This document shows positions 5,572-45,344 of a stretch of DNA of 46,117 bases, one piece after another. The notes beneath the pieces are model-generated. The model ran no database searches, was not told the origin of the DNA, and was given only the letters and a program-made list of their open reading frames with translations. This DNA comes from Acidiphilium sp. 37-60-79. Its GTDB lineage: Bacteria; Pseudomonadota; Alphaproteobacteria; Acetobacterales; Acetobacteraceae. Position 1 is the first letter of the stretch. The number at the start of each line of letters is the position of its first letter. The stretch covers positions 1-46,117 of the forward strand of contig NCBV01000039.1 of NCBI GenBank assembly GCA_002279355.1. Direction: 5' to 3'. A program made the position numbers and the translations under genes.

Positions 5572-5600
5572 CGCCGCTGATTTGAATTGATTAGATCAAT

Positions 5601-5640
5601 ATTGGTTTAGGTTGAATCGAAAAATTCGACCTAAACCAAT
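5601..5640. terminator. Long hairpin after the AsmA gene
   Basis: Two 17-nt arms (5601-5617 and 5624-5640), complementary except for one G-U-type mismatch, flank a 6-nt loop. It lies between the convergent AsmA and hemW genes and partly overlaps the dispersed repeat at 5631-5681. No T-run follows on the plus strand, so it may be a repeat-borne hairpin rather than a canonical terminator. Confidence 0.6.
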
Positions 5641-5681
5641 GAAATTGATCGGCAAACAAAGGCCAGAGCGTGATTGATGAT
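5631..5681 (-). repeat. Dispersed intergenic repeat, copy 1
   Basis: Positions 5631-5666 are the exact reverse complement of 33937-33972 (36 of 36). Positions 5637-5681 match the reverse complement of 41601-41645 at 43 of 45 positions. Its outer part forms one arm of the hairpin that contains the hemW stop codon. There is no coding capacity and no transposase. Confidence 0.85.
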
Positions 5682-5696
5682 AAGCAATCACGCTCT
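5665..5696 (-). terminator. Hairpin overlapping the hemW stop codon
   Basis: Perfect 12-bp arms (5665-5676 and 5685-5696) around an 8-nt loop. The hemW stop codon (5695-5697 on the minus strand) lies at the foot of the stem. It may act as a terminator or 3'-end protector for hemW and is part of the repeat copy. Confidence 0.6.
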
Positions 5697-6843
5697 AAAG
5701 GATCAATGCCGCGAGCAACGAGTCCAGCCGCTTGCGGCCCTCGGCGGTCGCGATCAGGCGGGTCGGGGTGAGGCTGATATAACCGGCCAAGAGCGCCTGA
5801 TCGACGATGTCAGGATCGAGCAAATCAGCGAGGCGATACTGGGTGCGGGCAAAAAATGCTGCGCAATCGATGCCTTCGGTGAGGCGCAGACCCATCAGCA
5901 AGGCTTCGCGCGCGCGCTCCGGCGGATCGATGGCCAACTCCTCGGTGCTGCCATGGCCGCGCGCTTGCACCAAGGACGCCCATTCCTCCGGCGCGCGGTG
6001 GCGGCGGGTGGCGAGCAATTGATCGCCGATGGTGATGCGACCATGCGCGCCGGGGCCGATTCCGGCGTAATCCTGATAGCGCCAATAGGTGAGGTTATGG
6101 CGCGATTCCTGGCCAGGGCGGGCATAGTTGGAGATTTCATAAGGGTGCAGGCCGTGCTCGGCGGCGACGTCGGCGGTCGCGTCGTATAAGGCGGCGGCGT
6201 CATCATCATCGGGGAGCGAAAATTCGGCGCGGGCGAAGCGAGTGGCGAATTGGGTGCCAGGTTCAATGGTGAGTTGATAAAGCGAAAGATGATCGAGGCC
6301 GACCGCGAGGGCGCGGCTTAACTCCGCACGCCAAGAAGCAAGGGTTTGGCCGGGGCGGGCATAAATGAGGTCAAAACTGACGCGCGGGAAAATGCGGCGC
6401 GCGAGGGCGACGGCGGCCATCGCCTCAGCGCTGGAATGGCCCCGGCCCAGAAACGCGAGCGCTTGATCATCGAGGCTTTGCACGCCGATCGAGACGCGGT
6501 TGACCCCGGCGGCCCGATAGCCAGCGAAGCGCTCGGCCTCGATGCTGGTCGGGTTGGCTTCCAGGGTGATCTCAATATCAGGGTCGGGCGTAAACAGCCG
6601 CACGGCATCATCGATTAAGGCGGCGACGCTCGCCGGGGCCATCAGGCTCGGCGTGCCGCCGCCGAAAAAGATCGAGCCGAGGTGGCGCGGGCCTAGGCGA
6701 GCGGCCTCATAGCGCAGTTCGGCGCGCAACCCTGCTATGATTGCGGCTTCGGGGATCTGCGCCCGGACATGGGAGTTAAAATCGCAATACGGGCATTTGC
6801 TCAAGCAAAATGGCCAATGGATATAGAGGGCGAGCGGTTGCAT
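5695..6843 (-). CDS. hemW: Radical SAM heme chaperone HemW
   Basis: A 382-residue radical-SAM protein of the HemN/HemW group. The CX3CX2C iron-sulfur motif is at Cys13, Cys17 and Cys20 (FCLSKCPYCDF), directly after the YIHWPF signature. This short spacing from the N terminus is typical of HemW rather than coproporphyrinogen III dehydrogenase HemN. GGGTPSL and GVQSL motifs follow, and the C-terminal HemW region is complete. HemW is thought to insert heme into respiratory enzymes; the gene is often mis-named coproporphyrinogen oxidase. The ATG at 6841-6843 is the natural start. The stop codon lies inside a repeat-borne hairpin. Confidence 0.93.
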   Translation of the reverse strand: MQPLALYIHWPFCLSKCPYCDFNSHVRAQIPEAAIIAGLRAELRYEAARLGPRHLGSIFFGGGTPSLMAPASVAALIDDAVRLFTPDPDIEITLEANPTSIEAERFAGYRAAGVNRVSIGVQSLDDQALAFLGRGHSSAEAMAAVALARRIFPRVSFDLIYARPGQTLASWRAELSRALAVGLDHLSLYQLTIEPGTQFATRFARAEFSLPDDDDAAALYDATADVAAEHGLHPYEISNYARPGQESRHNLTYWRYQDYAGIGPGAHGRITIGDQLLATRRHRAPEEWASLVQARGHGSTEELAIDPPERAREALLMGLRLTEGIDCAAFFARTQYRLADLLDPDIVDQALLAGYISLTPTRLIATAEGRKRLDSLLAALIL

Positions 6844-33049: not shown

Positions 33050-33874
33050 ATGGATGGTTTGATTGATTCGGCTTACCTTACCTCGTTCGACGCGCCGGAC
33101 ATCGCCGCCGCGACGTTTGGGGCGGCCGATGTCGCCTGCCTCTATCAACCGATTGTGCGTCTGGCTGATGGGGCGGTCGACTCCGCCGAAATATTGGTGC
33201 GCCGCCGGGATCAGGATGGCGCGTTGCAGGGCGCCGCACAATTCGCTGAAGCCCTCTATGCCGGTGACCCCGCCCGTCGGCTAACCGGCCTCGTGGTGCG
33301 TGCGGTCATTGACGATGTCACGGCAGGACGCCTCTCGGGATTGCCGTTTTTGTACATGCTTAATTTACCGCTGCATGTGCTGCTTGACCCGACATTGCCC
33401 TCATGGATTGATCGGGCGTTGTCGGACGCGCACATATCACCGGATCGGCTCGGCTTCGAATTGACCGAGACCCGCCCGGTCGAGGATTTTGCCGAGGCCG
33501 CAATGGCGATCACCGCGCTGCGTTCGCAAGGCCATCACGTGGCGCTAGACGATATCACCGACGCGACAGCGGACCTTGATCGGTTATTTCAGCTTGATTT
33601 CAACGCGGTGAAGCTCGATTGCAGCGTGGTGGCTGCCCTCGATCATTCATCCGCAGCGCATGATTTCGTGCGCCGCACGGTGGCGGATTGTGCGGCAACC
33701 GGCAAGCAATTGATCGCCGAGGGTGCCGAAGATCCGGCGATGCTGGTGCGGCTGCATGATTTGGGCGTGGGCTACGCGCAGGGATTCATCATTGCCCGCC
33801 CCCTGACCGCACCGGCGCTGCGCCAATGGTTCAATGGCTGGGCGGATAATGCCCTGTTTCCGGTCGCGGGCTAG
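33050..33874 (+). CDS. EAL-domain protein (c-di-GMP phosphodiesterase family)
   Basis: A 274-residue stand-alone EAL domain with no sensor or GGDEF partner. The signature EAL reads EIL (Glu47). The other usual metal and catalytic residues are visible: Asn105, Glu137 (FELTE), Asp167-Asp168, Lys188, Glu224 (IAEGAED) and Gln244 (GYAQGFIIARPL). The loop after the aspartate pair is DDITDA instead of DDFGTG, so activity is uncertain and it may be a weak enzyme or a c-di-GMP receptor. A TTG 57 nt upstream is an alternative start. The TAG stop is the first base triplet of a long hairpin, and repeat sequence follows. Confidence 0.85.
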   Translation: MDGLIDSAYLTSFDAPDIAAATFGAADVACLYQPIVRLADGAVDSAEILVRRRDQDGALQGAAQFAEALYAGDPARRLTGLVVRAVIDDVTAGRLSGLPFLYMLNLPLHVLLDPTLPSWIDRALSDAHISPDRLGFELTETRPVEDFAEAAMAITALRSQGHHVALDDITDATADLDRLFQLDFNAVKLDCSVVAALDHSSAAHDFVRRTVADCAATGKQLIAEGAEDPAMLVRLHDLGVGYAQGFIIARPLTAPALRQWFNGWADNALFPVAG

Positions 33875-33922
33875 TGTCCTGCCCCTGAAATTCATTAGAT
33901 GAATTTGAGGGGCAGGACACTA
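33872..33922. repeat. Long hairpin containing the EAL gene stop codon
   Basis: Two 24-nt arms (33872-33895 and 33899-33922) with a single mismatch and a 3-nt loop. The first three bases of the left arm are the TAG stop codon of the EAL gene. It probably terminates or protects the transcript, and marks the left edge of a 270-bp repeat-rich interval. Confidence 0.8.
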
Positions 33923-33936
33923 ACTCATTGAATTTT

Positions 33937-33972
33937 CTGGCCTTTGTTTGCCGATCAATTTCATTGGTTTAG
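33937..33972 (+). repeat. Dispersed intergenic repeat, copy 2
   Basis: The 36 nt are identical to the reverse complement of 5631-5666. The first 30 nt also match 41616-41645 at 29 positions. It lies 14 nt after the EAL-stop hairpin and leads straight into the first of two larger repeat units. Confidence 0.85.
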
Positions 33973-34145
33973 CTCATCGTTTTGGCGAGCAACTTTTGGC
34001 GAGCAACTTCGTCCGATCCGATGAAATTATCTGATCGGATGTTGCTCTAGAGCATTGTCCGTTCGCATTGGCTCACGAACAATGCTCCAGCTCATTGTTT
34101 TGGCGAGCAACTTTATCCGATCAGGTGATTCCACCTGATCGGATG
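33971..34145. repeat. Two imperfect copies of a hairpin-bearing repeat unit
   Basis: Unit A (33971-34041) and unit B (34089-34145) share a 25-nt head with one mismatch (33971-33995 and 34089-34113) and both end in CTGATCGGATG after a dyad. Unit A additionally contains a 14-bp tandem duplication (33980-33993, 33994-34007). Between them (34042-34088) lies another hairpin built on GAGCATTG...CAATGCTC. There is no coding capacity, except that the end of unit B encodes the tail of the alcohol dehydrogenase. Confidence 0.75.
34115..34144. terminator. Hairpin overlapping the alcohol dehydrogenase stop codon
   Basis: Perfect 13-bp arms (34115-34127 and 34132-34144) with a 4-nt loop. The dehydrogenase stop codon (34121-34123, minus strand) lies within it, and the last seven residues are encoded by the stem. 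It lies in the outer part of repeat unit B. Confidence 0.75.
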
Positions 34146-35263
34146 ACTGCAGGATTATTCGCCGGACTGCCGGAGGCCAAAGCCTGATCAGCCATCACCG
34201 CGCGACGTGCTGACCATTGAGCGGGATCGATACCAAAGCCCGACGGGGTCGGCACCGCCAAATCCCGGTTGATCGCGGCCAGTTCAGCCACCAGGGCAGC
34301 CCCCGCACTTTGATCGGCGGCGTCAACCGGCGCAAAACCGGCGAGACGCGCCGCCTCGGCATAGCGCGGCAAAGCGGCATTGAGCGAATAATCGGTGATC
34401 GCGGGCAGCAGCATCGCGTTGGACATGCCATGCGGCACATGAAAATGGGCACCGATGGGCCGCGACATGCCATGCACCAGCGCCACCGAGGCGTTGGAGA
34501 ACGCAAGCCCCGCGAGCGTGGCGCCGAGCATCATCGCCTCGCGCGCCGCCCGATCGTCTGGTGTTTGATATACACGGCGCAGATGAGGGCCGATCAGCCC
34601 CAGAGCGGTGCGCGCATAGCCATCCGAAATCGGCGCGGCGCGGCGCGATACAAAAGCCTCGAGCGCATGGGTAAACGCATCGATGCCGGTATCGGCGGTG
34701 GTGCGCGCAGGCACGCTCAGCGTCAGCTCATAATCCACTAAAGCCGCCACCGGCAGCGCGCCAAGACCACCGATCAGCATTTTTTCATCGGTCTCGGTGT
34801 CAGTAATCACGGTAAAGCGCGTCGCCTCAGAGCCGGTGCCCGCCGTGGTCGGCACCGCAATCAGCGGCCAGGCCGCATGATCCGCACTCACCGGAACTTT
34901 GAAATCGCGCAATTTGGCGCCCGGTGCGGCCGCGAGCAAAATATTGATCGCCTTGGCGGTGTCGATCGGGGAACCGCCCCCAAAACCGATGATACAATCA
35001 ATCACGGTGCTGCGCGCCAGCGCCACACCAGCATCGATCACCGTGTCAATCGGCTCGGGCACGGTTTGCGAAAACACCGTGTAGCCAATGCCAGCCGCAT
35101 CGAGCGGATCGGTGAGTTGCCGGATCAGGCCGAGCTTGACCATCACCGGATCCGTCACGATCAGCGGCGCAGAAACGCCCAAGCGCGCGAGCAAAGCCGC
35201 AATGCGGGTAACCGCCCCGCCGCCAATATCGAGAAAACGCGGCGCAAAAAATTGGATATTCAT
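34121..35263 (-). CDS. Iron-containing alcohol dehydrogenase
   Basis: A 380-residue group III alcohol dehydrogenase. The nucleotide-binding motif is GFGGGSPIDTAKA, followed by PTTAGTGSEAT. The metal ligands are Asp and His in DTGIDAFTHALEAF and the two histidines in VHGMSRPIGAHFHVPHG. The start is the ATG at 35263, with a GGAGGGG tract upstream. The C terminus is odd: after SGSPANNP, where relatives usually continue with a helix of about 15 residues, it ends AVIRSGGIT, encoded by a repeat hairpin. The tail therefore looks truncated and replaced (inference). It is last in a prs-GST-phosphatase-ADH run. Confidence 0.92.
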   Translation of the reverse strand: MNIQFFAPRFLDIGGGAVTRIAALLARLGVSAPLIVTDPVMVKLGLIRQLTDPLDAAGIGYTVFSQTVPEPIDTVIDAGVALARSTVIDCIIGFGGGSPIDTAKAINILLAAAPGAKLRDFKVPVSADHAAWPLIAVPTTAGTGSEATRFTVITDTETDEKMLIGGLGALPVAALVDYELTLSVPARTTADTGIDAFTHALEAFVSRRAAPISDGYARTALGLIGPHLRRVYQTPDDRAAREAMMLGATLAGLAFSNASVALVHGMSRPIGAHFHVPHGMSNAMLLPAITDYSLNAALPRYAEAARLAGFAPVDAADQSAGAALVAELAAINRDLAVPTPSGFGIDPAQWSARRAVMADQALASGSPANNPAVIRSGGIT

Positions 35264-40508: not shown

Positions 40509-41440
40509 ACGACGCGCTGATCCTCGCGTCAGCCACCGGCAACCTCCTGCGCCTCGCCTTGCTCGAAGCCGGCACCCTGGTCGAATACACCCTGATCGAT
40601 CCCGCCCAACCCGACGGCGTCGGCGATCAGTACGAAGGCCGCGTCCTCGCCCGCGCCTCCGCCATGGGCGGCGTCTTCGTCGATCTCGGCAGCAGCACAG
40701 GCACCGGATTTCTCCCCGATAGCGCCGGCGGCAAAACCGCGACCGAAGGCGATGCCCTCAGCCTGCGCATCACCCGCGCCGCCCAAGGCGGCAAAGGCCC
40801 CCGCGTCGCAACCACGAGCATCCCGCCCCAAGGCGGCAAACCCGGCCTGCGCGCCCGCGGCCCCGGACCCCTCGGCGCACTCCGCGCGCTACACCCGCAC
40901 GCGCCCATCCACGCCGATCAATACGCCGTGCTCGCCACGCTGCGCCCCACCTATCCCGACGCCACCTATCAAGCCGCCTGCTTTGCCGCCCTCGAGGATG
41001 AAATCGCCGCCCTAGCCGAACCACAATGCCCGCTCCCCGGCGGCGCCATCGCGCATTTCAGCCCCACCCCCGCCCTCACCGCCATCGATATCGATGCCGC
41101 CGCCGCAACCGCCGCACGCGCCCGCAAAACCGAATCCCAAGCCCAGCTCAACCGTGGCCTCATCCCCGAACTCACCCGGCAAATCCGCCTGCGCAATTTC
41201 GGCGGCGCCATTCTGATCGATTTCGCCGGCATGAAAGCCACCGCCCGCCCCGCCCTCGGCCCAGATCTCGCCACCGCCCTCGCCCGCGATCCACAACACC
41301 CCAAGCTGCTCGGCTTCACCGCCCTCGGCTTTGCCGAAATCCGCCGCCCGCGCATTCGCGCACCCCTACACGAAATTCTCGCCCACCATCACACAACCCA
41401 CCATCACACAACCCAGCATCACGAGGCCCGCCAGCCATGA
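40505..41440 (+). CDS. RNase E/G family protein, short form
   Basis: A 311-residue ribonuclease of the E/G family with an N-terminal S1-like part (YEGRVLARASAMGGVFVDLG) and the metal-site acidic segments TAIDID and GGAILIDFAGM, which correspond to the magnesium aspartates of RNase E. It ends soon after the DNase-I-like subdomain and lacks the CPxC zinc-link and small domain of full-length RNase G. The C terminus is His-rich (HHHTTHHHTT), created by a tandem duplication. It overlaps maf and yacG by 4 nt each. Confidence 0.85.
   Translation: MNDALILASATGNLLRLALLEAGTLVEYTLIDPAQPDGVGDQYEGRVLARASAMGGVFVDLGSSTGTGFLPDSAGGKTATEGDALSLRITRAAQGGKGPRVATTSIPPQGGKPGLRARGPGPLGALRALHPHAPIHADQYAVLATLRPTYPDATYQAACFAALEDEIAALAEPQCPLPGGAIAHFSPTPALTAIDIDAAAATAARARKTESQAQLNRGLIPELTRQIRLRNFGGAILIDFAGMKATARPALGPDLATALARDPQHPKLLGFTALGFAEIRRPRIRAPLHEILAHHHTTHHHTTQHHEARQP
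41384..41413 (+). repeat. 15-bp tandem duplication encoding a His-rich tail
   Basis: Two exact 15-nt units (41384-41398 and 41399-41413), with a partial third that has diverged. The in-frame result is the repeat HHHTT at the end of the RNase E/G-like protein, just before the yacG start. Confidence 0.85.
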
Positions 41441-41601
41441 CCAATCCGCCCCCCGCCAAACCCTGCCCCATCTGCGGCAAACCGCCCGATCCCACCCACG
41501 CCCCCTTCTGCTCACCGCGCTGCCGCACCATCGATCTCGGCCGCTGGTTCAACGAAGATTACGCGCTCCCCGCCACCACCCCCCTCGACCCTGATAGCTG
41601 A
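41437..41601 (+). CDS. yacG: DNA gyrase inhibitor / zinc-ribbon protein YacG
   Basis: A 54-residue zinc-ribbon protein with Cys10, Cys13, Cys25 and Cys29 (CPIC and CSPRC) followed by the family motif RTIDLGRWFNEDYALP. E. coli YacG binds GyrB and inhibits gyrase. It overlaps the RNase gene by 4 nt (ATGA). Its TGA at 41599-41601 touches the third copy of the dispersed repeat. Confidence 0.95.
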   Translation: MTNPPPAKPCPICGKPPDPTHAPFCSPRCRTIDLGRWFNEDYALPATTPLDPDS

Positions 41602-41645
41602 TCATCAATCACCCTCTGGCCTTTCTTTGCCGATCAATTTCATTG
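41601..41645 (+). repeat. Dispersed intergenic repeat, copy 3
   Basis: Matches the reverse complement of 5637-5681 at 43 of 45 positions, and 33937-33966 at 29 of 30. It starts on the last base of the yacG stop codon. It lies between convergent yacG and the LOG-family gene. No long hairpin is evident at this copy. Confidence 0.85.
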
Positions 41646-43412: not shown

Positions 43413-45344
43413 CTACTCGTCGCGTTTGACCAAGCCGGATAACACGGCGACCAATAATAAACTCGCGACCCAGCCGAACAAAGTCTCAAACCAAACCGCA
43501 ACTTGCACTGCCCGACCGAGCGGGGTCGATGTCATCGGCGACCAACTCGAAACCTGCCCCAAATCACCCACCGGCAGCAAAACATTGAGCGAATAAACCG
43601 GCGACACAAATGTCGTATAGGCTGGCGGTAACGCCTTACAGCGCGTCCAAATCGGATGCTTGTGCGGCCGCCCCCAACAAACCGCATCAGCGGGATTCTG
43701 ATAAATCGCCGGATTGGTCGGCGCAAACACGCCATGATTGGAACCAACTGCATAAAGCCCGGTGCAGACTAGCCAAACAATGGCCGCAAACATCAGCGAT
43801 ATCAGCGGACGATACCCATAGGAAGCCATCGCCCAATAACACCAATGCAAACCCTCCGCCACGCGCCGATAGCCTCCGCGCCACCAAGACCACAGCCAAC
43901 TGGGACACCAGCCCGGCCCGGTCTCGGACGAGCCACCAATCAACCCAATCCGCCGCTTATGCGTCTCAAACGCAATCCCAACCTCCCGCGCCGCCTCATA
44001 ATGCCCCATCTCCCGCAAAACCTTGCGCGCCTGAATCCAAGGCTGCGGCTTGAAACCATCGGGATTCTTGACATCGCCCGCACGGTCCTCGCGTCGCTGC
44101 TCCAGCCACTTAATCCGGTCTTTGCCGCTGACCGGCGCATCCTCTCCAAACGAATCATATACAAACCCGGTGAGATTGATCCGATCGGGCCATGATTTTG
44201 CTTGGTCGTGAAGCACCGCCACCCGCGCAGACGTAAGATCCAGCGCCTTGATCTGACCACCCAGATAAAACGCGCTATGAAAGCGCACGCGCGACAGGCT
44301 CACCTCGCCGTGAGCCTCGCACTCCATGAACACCTCGCCCTTAACCTCAGCGCCCTGCGCCTTGAGCGCATCGCCCTGCTCGTTCGAAAAAACGCCCCCG
44401 TCACAACTCCACTGCCCACCAATCTTCGCACCGGGCAGCCGCACCGCGCCTTCCGCGCTAAATCCCGCTCCCATCGACACAGTGCCAGCCACCTCGATCT
44501 GATCAGCACTCAGCGCATTACCTTGCGGATTGGCAAAAACGCCGTCGTTGCAAACCCACTGCCCGCCAATCTTCGCACCGAGCAGCCGCACCTCACCTTC
44601 CGCTCTAAATCCCGCTCCCATCGACACAATGCCAGCGACCTCGATCCCGTCAGCAATCAGTGCGTCACCCTGCAGATTAACAAAAACGCCCTCCTTGCAA
44701 CTCCACTGCCCACCAATCTTTGCCCCGAGCAGCCGCACCGCACCTTCCGCTCTAAATCCCGCTCCCATCGACACATTGCCAGCGACCTCGATCCCATCAG
44801 CACTCAGTGCGTTGCCCTGCGAATTGGCAAAAACGCCGCCATTACAATTCCAAGTCCCACCAATCTTCGCACCGCGCAGCCGGATTTCACCCTCACTCAT
44901 GAACCCCTGACCAAGGAACACAACGCCCGATATGGTCGCACGGTCCGCGGCCAGACTCGGCACGCGGCTGCCTTCAAGAATCAAATAACCATCGATCTTG
45001 GCGTCCTTGAAATTTGGCGCGACGTCGAAATGACAATGATCCAGCTGGAGATTGCAAATGACATTGGCGCTCGACAGATCGAGCGTGCCTTCGACATAAG
45101 CACCCTTGAGCCAAACGCCCCGCTCATGCACGGGGGCGCGATCATCGCCGCCCAGCGCCAGGAACCGGATAAATTCCGCGCGCACACAATTTTCGTCCGT
45201 CCTGTCTCTGGGTCGCTTTTCAGCGATCTTCGCGAACTCCCCCCGCCTAACCGCCGCGAGCAGCTTTTGCTCCGCAGGCAACAGCGGCTCAAAATCGGCG
45301 AGCGAACGACCGAACGGACGAGCAGGCAATGGATCGATTGACAT
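43413..45344 (-). CDS. Membrane protein with 49-residue beta-helix repeats
   Basis: A 643-residue protein. Residues 1-130 are an N-terminal domain starting MSIDPLPARPFGRSLADFEP. Residues about 135-330 are four units of a 49-residue repeat (GIEVAGNVSMGAGFRAEGAV, then RLLGAKIGGQWSC), the last three nearly identical and each with a single WxC. Residues about 340-500 are linker and helical region, and the C-terminal 130 residues carry two strong TM segments (about 512-532 and 612-638). Similar alphaproteobacterial proteins exist with the label membrane-associated oxidoreductase, but I see no cofactor motif. Function unknown; it may be a beta-helix scaffold anchored at the membrane. Confidence 0.75.
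   Translation of the reverse strand: MSIDPLPARPFGRSLADFEPLLPAEQKLLAAVRRGEFAKIAEKRPRDRTDENCVRAEFIRFLALGGDDRAPVHERGVWLKGAYVEGTLDLSSANVICNLQLDHCHFDVAPNFKDAKIDGYLILEGSRVPSLAADRATISGVVFLGQGFMSEGEIRLRGAKIGGTWNCNGGVFANSQGNALSADGIEVAGNVSMGAGFRAEGAVRLLGAKIGGQWSCKEGVFVNLQGDALIADGIEVAGIVSMGAGFRAEGEVRLLGAKIGGQWVCNDGVFANPQGNALSADQIEVAGTVSMGAGFSAEGAVRLPGAKIGGQWSCDGGVFSNEQGDALKAQGAEVKGEVFMECEAHGEVSLSRVRFHSAFYLGGQIKALDLTSARVAVLHDQAKSWPDRINLTGFVYDSFGEDAPVSGKDRIKWLEQRREDRAGDVKNPDGFKPQPWIQARKVLREMGHYEAAREVGIAFETHKRRIGLIGGSSETGPGWCPSWLWSWWRGGYRRVAEGLHWCYWAMASYGYRPLISLMFAAIVWLVCTGLYAVGSNHGVFAPTNPAIYQNPADAVCWGRPHKHPIWTRCKALPPAYTTFVSPVYSLNVLLPVGDLGQVSSWSPMTSTPLGRAVQVAVWFETLFGWVASLLLVAVLSGLVKRDE
44355..44942 (-). 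repeat. 147-bp in-frame tandem repeat array
   Basis: Four units with a period of exactly 147 bp (44942-44796, 44795-44649, 44648-44502, 44501-44355), all in frame within the membrane protein gene. The three units after the first are highly similar at DNA level, which suggests recent duplication or homogenisation. Confidence 0.85.

Follow-up and report, generated by a model that had tools for sequence, protein, structure and literature searches.

Short repeats at the 3′ ends of genes in Acidiphilium sp. 37-60-79 (Acetobacteraceae) are, judging from sequence comparison, very probably copies of a CIR-like MITE, a miniature element with no transposase of its own that derives from an ISRm2011-2-like clade of alphaproteobacterial IS630s. 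The repeats came to notice in a stretch of 46,117 nt (GenBank assembly GCA_002279355.1, contig NCBV01000039.1, positions 1 to 46,117), hereafter called the window. The ends of the element read TA-GAGC or TA-GATC, where the hyphen marks its boundary, and the weight for an IS630 origin is carried by this end sequence together with a GANTC that begins at base 21, the site methylated by CcrM, the cell-cycle methyltransferase of the class.

The element and its copies in the window

A first-pass annotation of this DNA had reported that the 36 nt at 5631-5666 recur exactly, as the reverse complement, at 33937-33972 and that the 45 nt at 5637-5681 recur at 41601-41645 with two mismatches. Both recurrences are present, and an inverted-repeat search of the window shows them as two pairs. 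The 36-mer makes up the central part of a TA-flanked element of 102 bp, built of two hairpins and a linker, which occupies 5594-5695. Only this first copy is whole; each of the other two is a fragment lying among other palindromes in a mosaic. The features are as follows.

5594-5695, minus strand: complete 102-bp element (GAGC...GATC) with TA on both sides; 108-nt match, 99% identity to the query
5696-5697, no strand: left copy of the TA target duplication; with 5695 it makes the hemW stop TAG on the minus strand
5592-5593, no strand: right copy of the TA target duplication
5665-5696, minus strand: hairpin 1, 12 pairs and a loop of 8, without GANTC (RNA fold, covarying pairs)
5651-5664, minus strand: linker GGCCTTTGTTTGCC, 14 nt; with the start of hairpin 2 it forms the core of the 36-mer
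5594-5650, minus strand: hairpin 2, with a 3′ arm similar to IS630-clade left ends
5614-5618, plus strand: GANTC (GAATC), beginning at base 21 from the right end of the element
5695-6843, minus strand: hemW (stop 5697-5695), whose stop TAG is the target TA plus the first G of the element (TIGR00539 match, translation, frame analysis)
33936-33975, plus strand: element fragment, query 32-71 of 108, in a mosaic between other repeat families
34050-34146, plus strand: second subfamily of the same build, read by eye as TA-GAGCATTG hairpin 1, linker, GAGCAACTTTATCCGATC hairpin 2 and GATTC tip, with the right end lost (also delimited as 34001-34146)
41437-41601: yacG (YacG models matched below their curated cut-offs)
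41592-41645, plus strand: decayed element fragment, query 9-62 of 108, overlapping the last yacG codons

The boundaries of the element were set by the empty sites of sister copies, and the TA duplication was likewise demonstrated at sister copies and carried over to the copy at 5594-5695. The RNA fold of this copy has an energy of -48.5 kcal/mol (z -11), and a covariance model of the family scores it at 126 bits. In the alignment of copies the base pairs covary, 17 of 23 having changes on both sides; in an alignment that was itself fitted to the covariance model, two-sided changes fill 149 cells vs a shuffle mean of 25. Up to an E value of 10 the model gives six matches in the window, two of which are other-strand re-hits of the complete copy.

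The three copies had been described as intergenic, non-coding and adjacent to stop codons. This needs amendment: the first copy itself supplies the hemW stop, the last yacG codons and their stop (...DPDS and stop, 41592-41601) are read from the decayed third copy, and the stop of the EAL gene (33872-33874) belongs to a neighboring, different repeat. As for intergenic placement, the stop codon of a reading frame comes from the element at many copies, and the last codons of yacG are part of one fragment.

Other repeats were also seen. A different palindrome of the form TA-GTGTCC...GGACAC-TA (TAGTGTCC...) at 33872-33922 supplies the stop of the EAL gene, and its relatives adjoin copies of the main element elsewhere in the home genome (flanks of L008 and L012). 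The second-subfamily end TAGAGCAACATCCGATCAGGTGGAATC, which has GANTC at base 21 (GAATC in the home genome), or near variants of it, is listed five times in the home genome. At 44324-44911 there is a 147-nt tandem repeat (three 294-nt matches at a spacing of 147) that overlaps a 643-aa open frame on the minus strand.

Family size and distribution

The 35-nt core was found with up to three mismatches at 13 places in the 3.07-Mb home genome and its reversed-pattern control at none, while a 108-nt query gave 69 BLAST matches, many of them other-strand re-hits of one copy. A covariance model built from 34 full copies was run on 10 genomes at E ≤ 0.01 and gave 63 matches in the home genome, 75 in G005, 52 in G009, 40 in G010, 18 in G016, 83 in G030 and at least 150 in G035, with none in the same-genus genomes G001, G004 and G008; these figures are matches, re-hits included, and not copies. 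The earlier proposal of a multi-copy family, made from three sites, is thus well founded.

By DNA search, 6 of 60 genomes matched (home, G009, G010, G016, G030 and G035), including two of the 12 same-genus relatives (G009 and G010), and G005 was missed by this search and found by the covariance model. Several of the carriers are MAGs, a type of assembly that often lacks IS copies. With model R1, a search across the class at E ≤ 1e-5 matched 4 of 241 genomes, the home genome being one of them, and one match (L217) is an unconvincing element; because no more than these four match, the exact subfamily is narrow. Its pattern was found in 35 stretches of named records, and the holders of one exact pattern are Acetobacteraceae or MAGs, such as Acidiphilium iwatense, Acidocella aquatica, an Elioraea MAG and others. 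A plasmid search with three elements gave no match, and no literature on Acidiphilium with both MITE and insertion sequence was found. At two places in G035 (C93:13479-13688 and C103:18025-18234), adjacent matches have four bases in common, as would be expected had new copies entered the ends of resident ones.

Insertion at TA

The flanks of seven home copies were joined without the element and searched in 13 same-genus genomes (home included), and empty orthologues were obtained cleanly for two of the seven sites and nearly cleanly for one more. The L018 site is empty in G009 over 303 ungapped nt at 91% identity, where the filled junction GGT-TA[..]TA-ATGC corresponds to GGTTAATGC. The L016 site, next to a gene read by eye as an acyl-CoA dehydrogenase, is also empty in G009 (340 columns at 89%, with a single gap of 16 nt that lies about 16 nt beyond the junction); here the empty relative has the stop TAA and the filled site TAG, of which the G is the first base of the element. 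The third site, L017, is empty in G010 (328 columns, 84%, five gaps, one of them beside the junction), and its relatives in G002, G006 and G011 are without the element but do not keep the TA at that point. TA stands on both sides at filled sites and once at empty sites: insertion takes place at TA and duplicates it, at YTAR-like sites. As to direction, we infer insertion in the home genome and not precise loss in the relative.

A larger sample comprised 96 full-length copies from five genomes, the best-scoring among those listed and hence neither random nor, coming from relatives, independent. In this sample TA was present at the left end of 80, at the right end of 72 and at both ends of 61 copies, and the outer bases favored Y...R. 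IS630 elements target TA. TA duplication alone is not proof of IS630, because IS711 of Brucella, an IS5-family element of the IS427 type, also duplicates TA at YTAR.

An IS630 clade with similar ends

Matches to the IS630 transposase domain (DDE_3) are present in all seven carriers; in G035, the carrier richest in the repeat, the only one is a fragment that scores below the cut-off. L139, a complete IS630 of the same genus, has TA-GAGCGTGATTGG at both ends, and several complete IS630s in the genus have TA-GAGC ends. At least one end lies within two mismatches of TAGAGCGTGAT in 8 of 26 DDE_3 loci. Eleven IS630s have at least one TA-GAGC end and six have both, and in a tree of the 26 DDE domains all of them fall within one clade of 14, for three members of which (L127, L132 and L176) no GAGC end was read. 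Two IS630s outside the clade, L123 and L125, show the string TAGAGC on a single side; we discounted it because their inverted ends lie elsewhere. Since copies and ISs share ancestry, none of these counts represents independent events.

The GANTC end of the element agrees with 12 IS left ends at 16 to 23 of 29 positions, the best being the same-genus L139 (23) and L130 (22), and with eight IS right ends at 14 to 19 of 29; 20,000 shuffles never exceeded 20. The GANTC end would accordingly be the counterpart of the IS left end. Its outer nine bases (GATCAATAT) match those of the IS (GAGCGTGAT) at only 5 of 9 positions, which may mean that a closer helper has been lost. The other end of the element matches the left end of L139 at 18 of 22 positions and the right end at 17 of 22; because it fits both alike, that it stands for the IS right end is something we infer.

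The home genome holds remnants of the clade, namely a transposase fragment beside TA-GGGCGTG and an isolated left end that carries GAATC at base 21. This isolated end (L357, G000 C10:5056-5082) lies upstream of a frame that by eye resembles a thiamine-diphosphate enzyme, in a stretch with no transposase. Among the other carriers, G009 has a clade copy (L134) cut by the contig end and G030 has several, and no intact IS with exactly the ends of the element was found in the seven carriers. Since the home genome yielded only IS remnants, the home family is probably a fossil or dependent on a lost or unassembled helper. The same-genus genomes G004, G007, G011 and G012 have the IS and no element in the DNA search, and G004, the only one of these four also searched with the covariance model, gave none there either.

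GANTC at base 21

A protein search at E ≤ 1e-35 detected the clade in 30 of 289 genomes of the class, and a TA-GAG left end could be read in 20 of the 30 loci and not in 10. These 20 and eight from Acetobacteraceae make up 28 left ends, selected for their TA-GAG start, without regard to GANTC. In 26 of the 28 (the exceptions are L129 and L124) a GANTC begins at base 21, upstream of the transposase; of 27 IS right ends, seven short strings of which were re-read to 58 bases, none has one there. Bases 5-20 of the left ends hold at most 0.9 bit each, whereas bases 21, 24 and 25 hold 2.0, G21, T24 and C25 being invariant. Two further clusters of GANTC, around bases 31-37 and 53-59, precede the transposase start in left ends of the clade. 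Named plasmid copies, including ISRm2011-2 of S. meliloti, were read from 15 alphaproteobacterial loci, two of which gave no left end; GANTC stands at base 21 in all 13 readable left ends, which begin GAGC (10), GAGT (2) or AAGC (1). Two distant IS630s from outside the Alphaproteobacteria, of Hymenobacter and Piscirickettsia (the latter with uncertain ends), have no GANTC at base 21.

In the element, GANTC occupies base 21 of the right end in 74 of the 96 copies. Altogether 79 of the 96 hold a GANTC. With one exception, every occurrence belongs to the tip region of hairpin 2, where the stem adjoins the loop; the 41 that do not start at base 21 are found at the mirror position 30 (38), at 29 (2) and at 83 (1). 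The site is mostly GAGTC in G035 and GAATC elsewhere, so that the middle base varies and the site stays. Its retention of 0.77 at base 21 is a local peak, compared with 0.48-0.59 for the words at 14-20 and 0.54-0.65 for those at 22-24, although the outermost words of the element are kept as well as or better than the base-21 site. Another two-hairpin element, L333, also has GANTC at base 21.

The RAMA domain, which is the C-terminal domain of CcrM, is matched in all seven carriers, with a stop codon inside the matched frame in G010, and the home protein combines N6_N4_Mtase and RAMA. By hand count, TAGAGC-N16-GANTC has at least 10 matches in 53 of 387 genomes of the class vs 2 of 387 for the reversed pattern, the extreme genome having 181 vs 2 and the home genome 9 vs 1; these counts mix ISs, MITEs and chance. 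Titles and abstract openings of the CcrM, IS630 and MITE literature held no statement of GANTC in IS630 ends, which is no proof of its absence.

Stop codons

Ends with TA-G and at least 330 nt of flank were counted for stop codons. At 50 of 142 such ends (left 26 of 73, right 24 of 69) the TAG terminated, in frame, an open frame 100 codons or longer, against 13 of 284 for the other two frames together, and in some copies long open frames stop in this way at both ends. The bias toward gene 3′ ends that the first-pass annotation had proposed is therefore real. It arises in good part because insertion into stop codons rebuilds them, and selection against hits within genes may add to it. Insertions into the TA of a TAA or TAG stop would survive, as TA plus the G of the element re-creates TAG, and this survival would let the family pile up at gene 3′ ends. 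Stop-codon rebuilding would account for the bias without recourse to a host function.

Proposed mechanism

In the mechanism that we propose from the sequences, a transposase of the IS630 clade would act in trans, cutting at the ends of the element and inserting it at TA. By analogy with Dam in IS10, transposition might be coupled to DNA replication through CcrM methylation of the GANTC sites that lie at the ends and in the leader of the transposase. An analogy of this kind with Dam and IS10, IS50 and IS903 has been drawn for other ISs (PMC9296519). A wider proposal, for and against which we see the case as evenly balanced, is that an IS630 clade found across the Alphaproteobacteria and its MITEs, those of CIR type among them, would be wired to CcrM. 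The base-21 GANTC and the leader GANTC would restrict expression of the transposase, activity of the ends, or both, to the period after replication when the DNA is hemimethylated, as the CcrM counterpart of Dam control of IS10/IS50, and the MITEs would spread at little cost, as insertion into TAA or TAG rebuilds TAG. This raises a new and testable question, namely whether the alphaproteobacterial cell cycle gates transposition.

Alternative explanations

The repeat might instead be an element of any origin that the host has domesticated, its CcrM/GcrA sites or its 3′-end hairpins being kept for host benefit in regulation, as terminators or in mRNA 3′ protection. Better conservation of GANTC than of the flanking words, strong hairpins, a single terminator-like site in the complete copy of the window, where 0.4 are expected, and the copies with stops at both ends would all suit such a role, but we consider it unlikely: the distribution is patchy (by DNA search 2 of 12 same-genus relatives, with G005 added by the model and none in G001, G004 and G008), G009 lacks the element at L016 and L018, and the IS end accounts for GANTC at base 21.

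Derivation from an IS5-family element of the IS427 type appears improbable to a clearly greater degree. Such an origin could draw on IS711, which duplicates TA at YTAR and occurs in a Bru-RS1 element according to PMC3163539, and on PF13340 transposases in six of the seven carriers, home included. Yet when 25 of the 30 fetched PF13340 loci were scanned, by a method that is crude for this family, seven had a TA-flanked inverted pair of at least 11/18 and none combined GAGC ends with GANTC at 21. The closest locus, L386, has TA-GAGG ends without GANTC, and L392 has a weak pair (11/18, ends CCCC) with GANTC at 21 on one side. Because of these two loci and the ambiguous second end of the element, we slightly raised the IS5 origin and slightly lowered the IS630 one; the IS5/IS427 origin was nevertheless rejected, as none of the 25 loci in this crude scan fits.

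The first-pass annotation had likened the repeat to a REP/MITE-type element, and the MITE half of this comparison stands. A REP/BIME-type element moved by RAYT (REP-associated tyrosine transposase) would likewise be palindromic, mosaic and near gene 3′ ends, but it has very little to recommend it here, given the TA duplication and the 102-bp two-hairpin unit with TA-flanked ends. A RAYT/REP origin was rejected since the transposase (Y1_Tnp, PF01797) is absent from all seven carriers, while it occurs in four of nine other genomes searched, six of the nine being non-carriers by DNA search alone. It is just as hard to credit that the repeat is an sRNA or riboregulator family and not a mobile element, despite its very stable fold and covarying pairs, since copies lie in both orientations, insertion at TA is seen at empty sites, and the window has no Rfam match at the gathering threshold and chance-like ones only below it, on which ground the RNA-family reading was dropped. 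The annotation had also set a repeat family against copies that trace to known insertion-sequence ends. In a sense they do trace to such ends, those of the IS630 clade, but as a MITE family and not as IS fragments.

Comparison with known systems

RIME of Rhizobium has a size like that of the repeat and two palindromes. Compared by description, RIME and Bru-RS1 of Brucella, the latter 103 bp long according to PMC3163539, resemble it as short palindromic intergenic repeats of Alphaproteobacteria. The RUP of pneumococcus and the Correia/NEMIS MITEs share with it a length of about 107 bp and TA termini with target duplication, and RUP has been proposed to be moved by IS630-Spn1; unlike the repeat, they have a stem formed by pairing of the two ends and not two arms, live in other hosts, and have no GANTC reported in the review from which these comparisons are taken (PMC2229807). 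The ISRm2011-2 group of IS630 and the repeat have in common TA-flanked GAGC-type ends and GANTC at base 21, in the IS at the left end, whereas the repeat has no transposase, measures 102 bp where the IS has about 1,050 bp, and departs from it over the outer nine bases of one end.

The closest likeness is to CIR, the Caulobacter CcrM-associated intergenic repeats (Chen & Shapiro 2003, as given in the review PMC2229807). Both are about 110 bp long, with TA termini, two arms and a linker, and GANTC at the loop of one arm, going by the description of CIR in that review. The same 2007 review marks the target duplication of CIR with a question mark and wants more information on mobility, and a 2024 MITE review calls CIRs strictly intergenic (PMC10969869). 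The repeat differs from CIR in its Acetobacteraceae hosts, in having a target duplication and a mobilizer clade proposed for it, and in often touching stop codons. We call it CIR-like and not CIR because it was set beside CIR1-4 by description alone. If our reading of the repeat as an IS630-derived MITE is right, CIR-type repeats would gain a target, a likely mobilizer and a source, and the CcrM site would become a conserved part of a transposon end.
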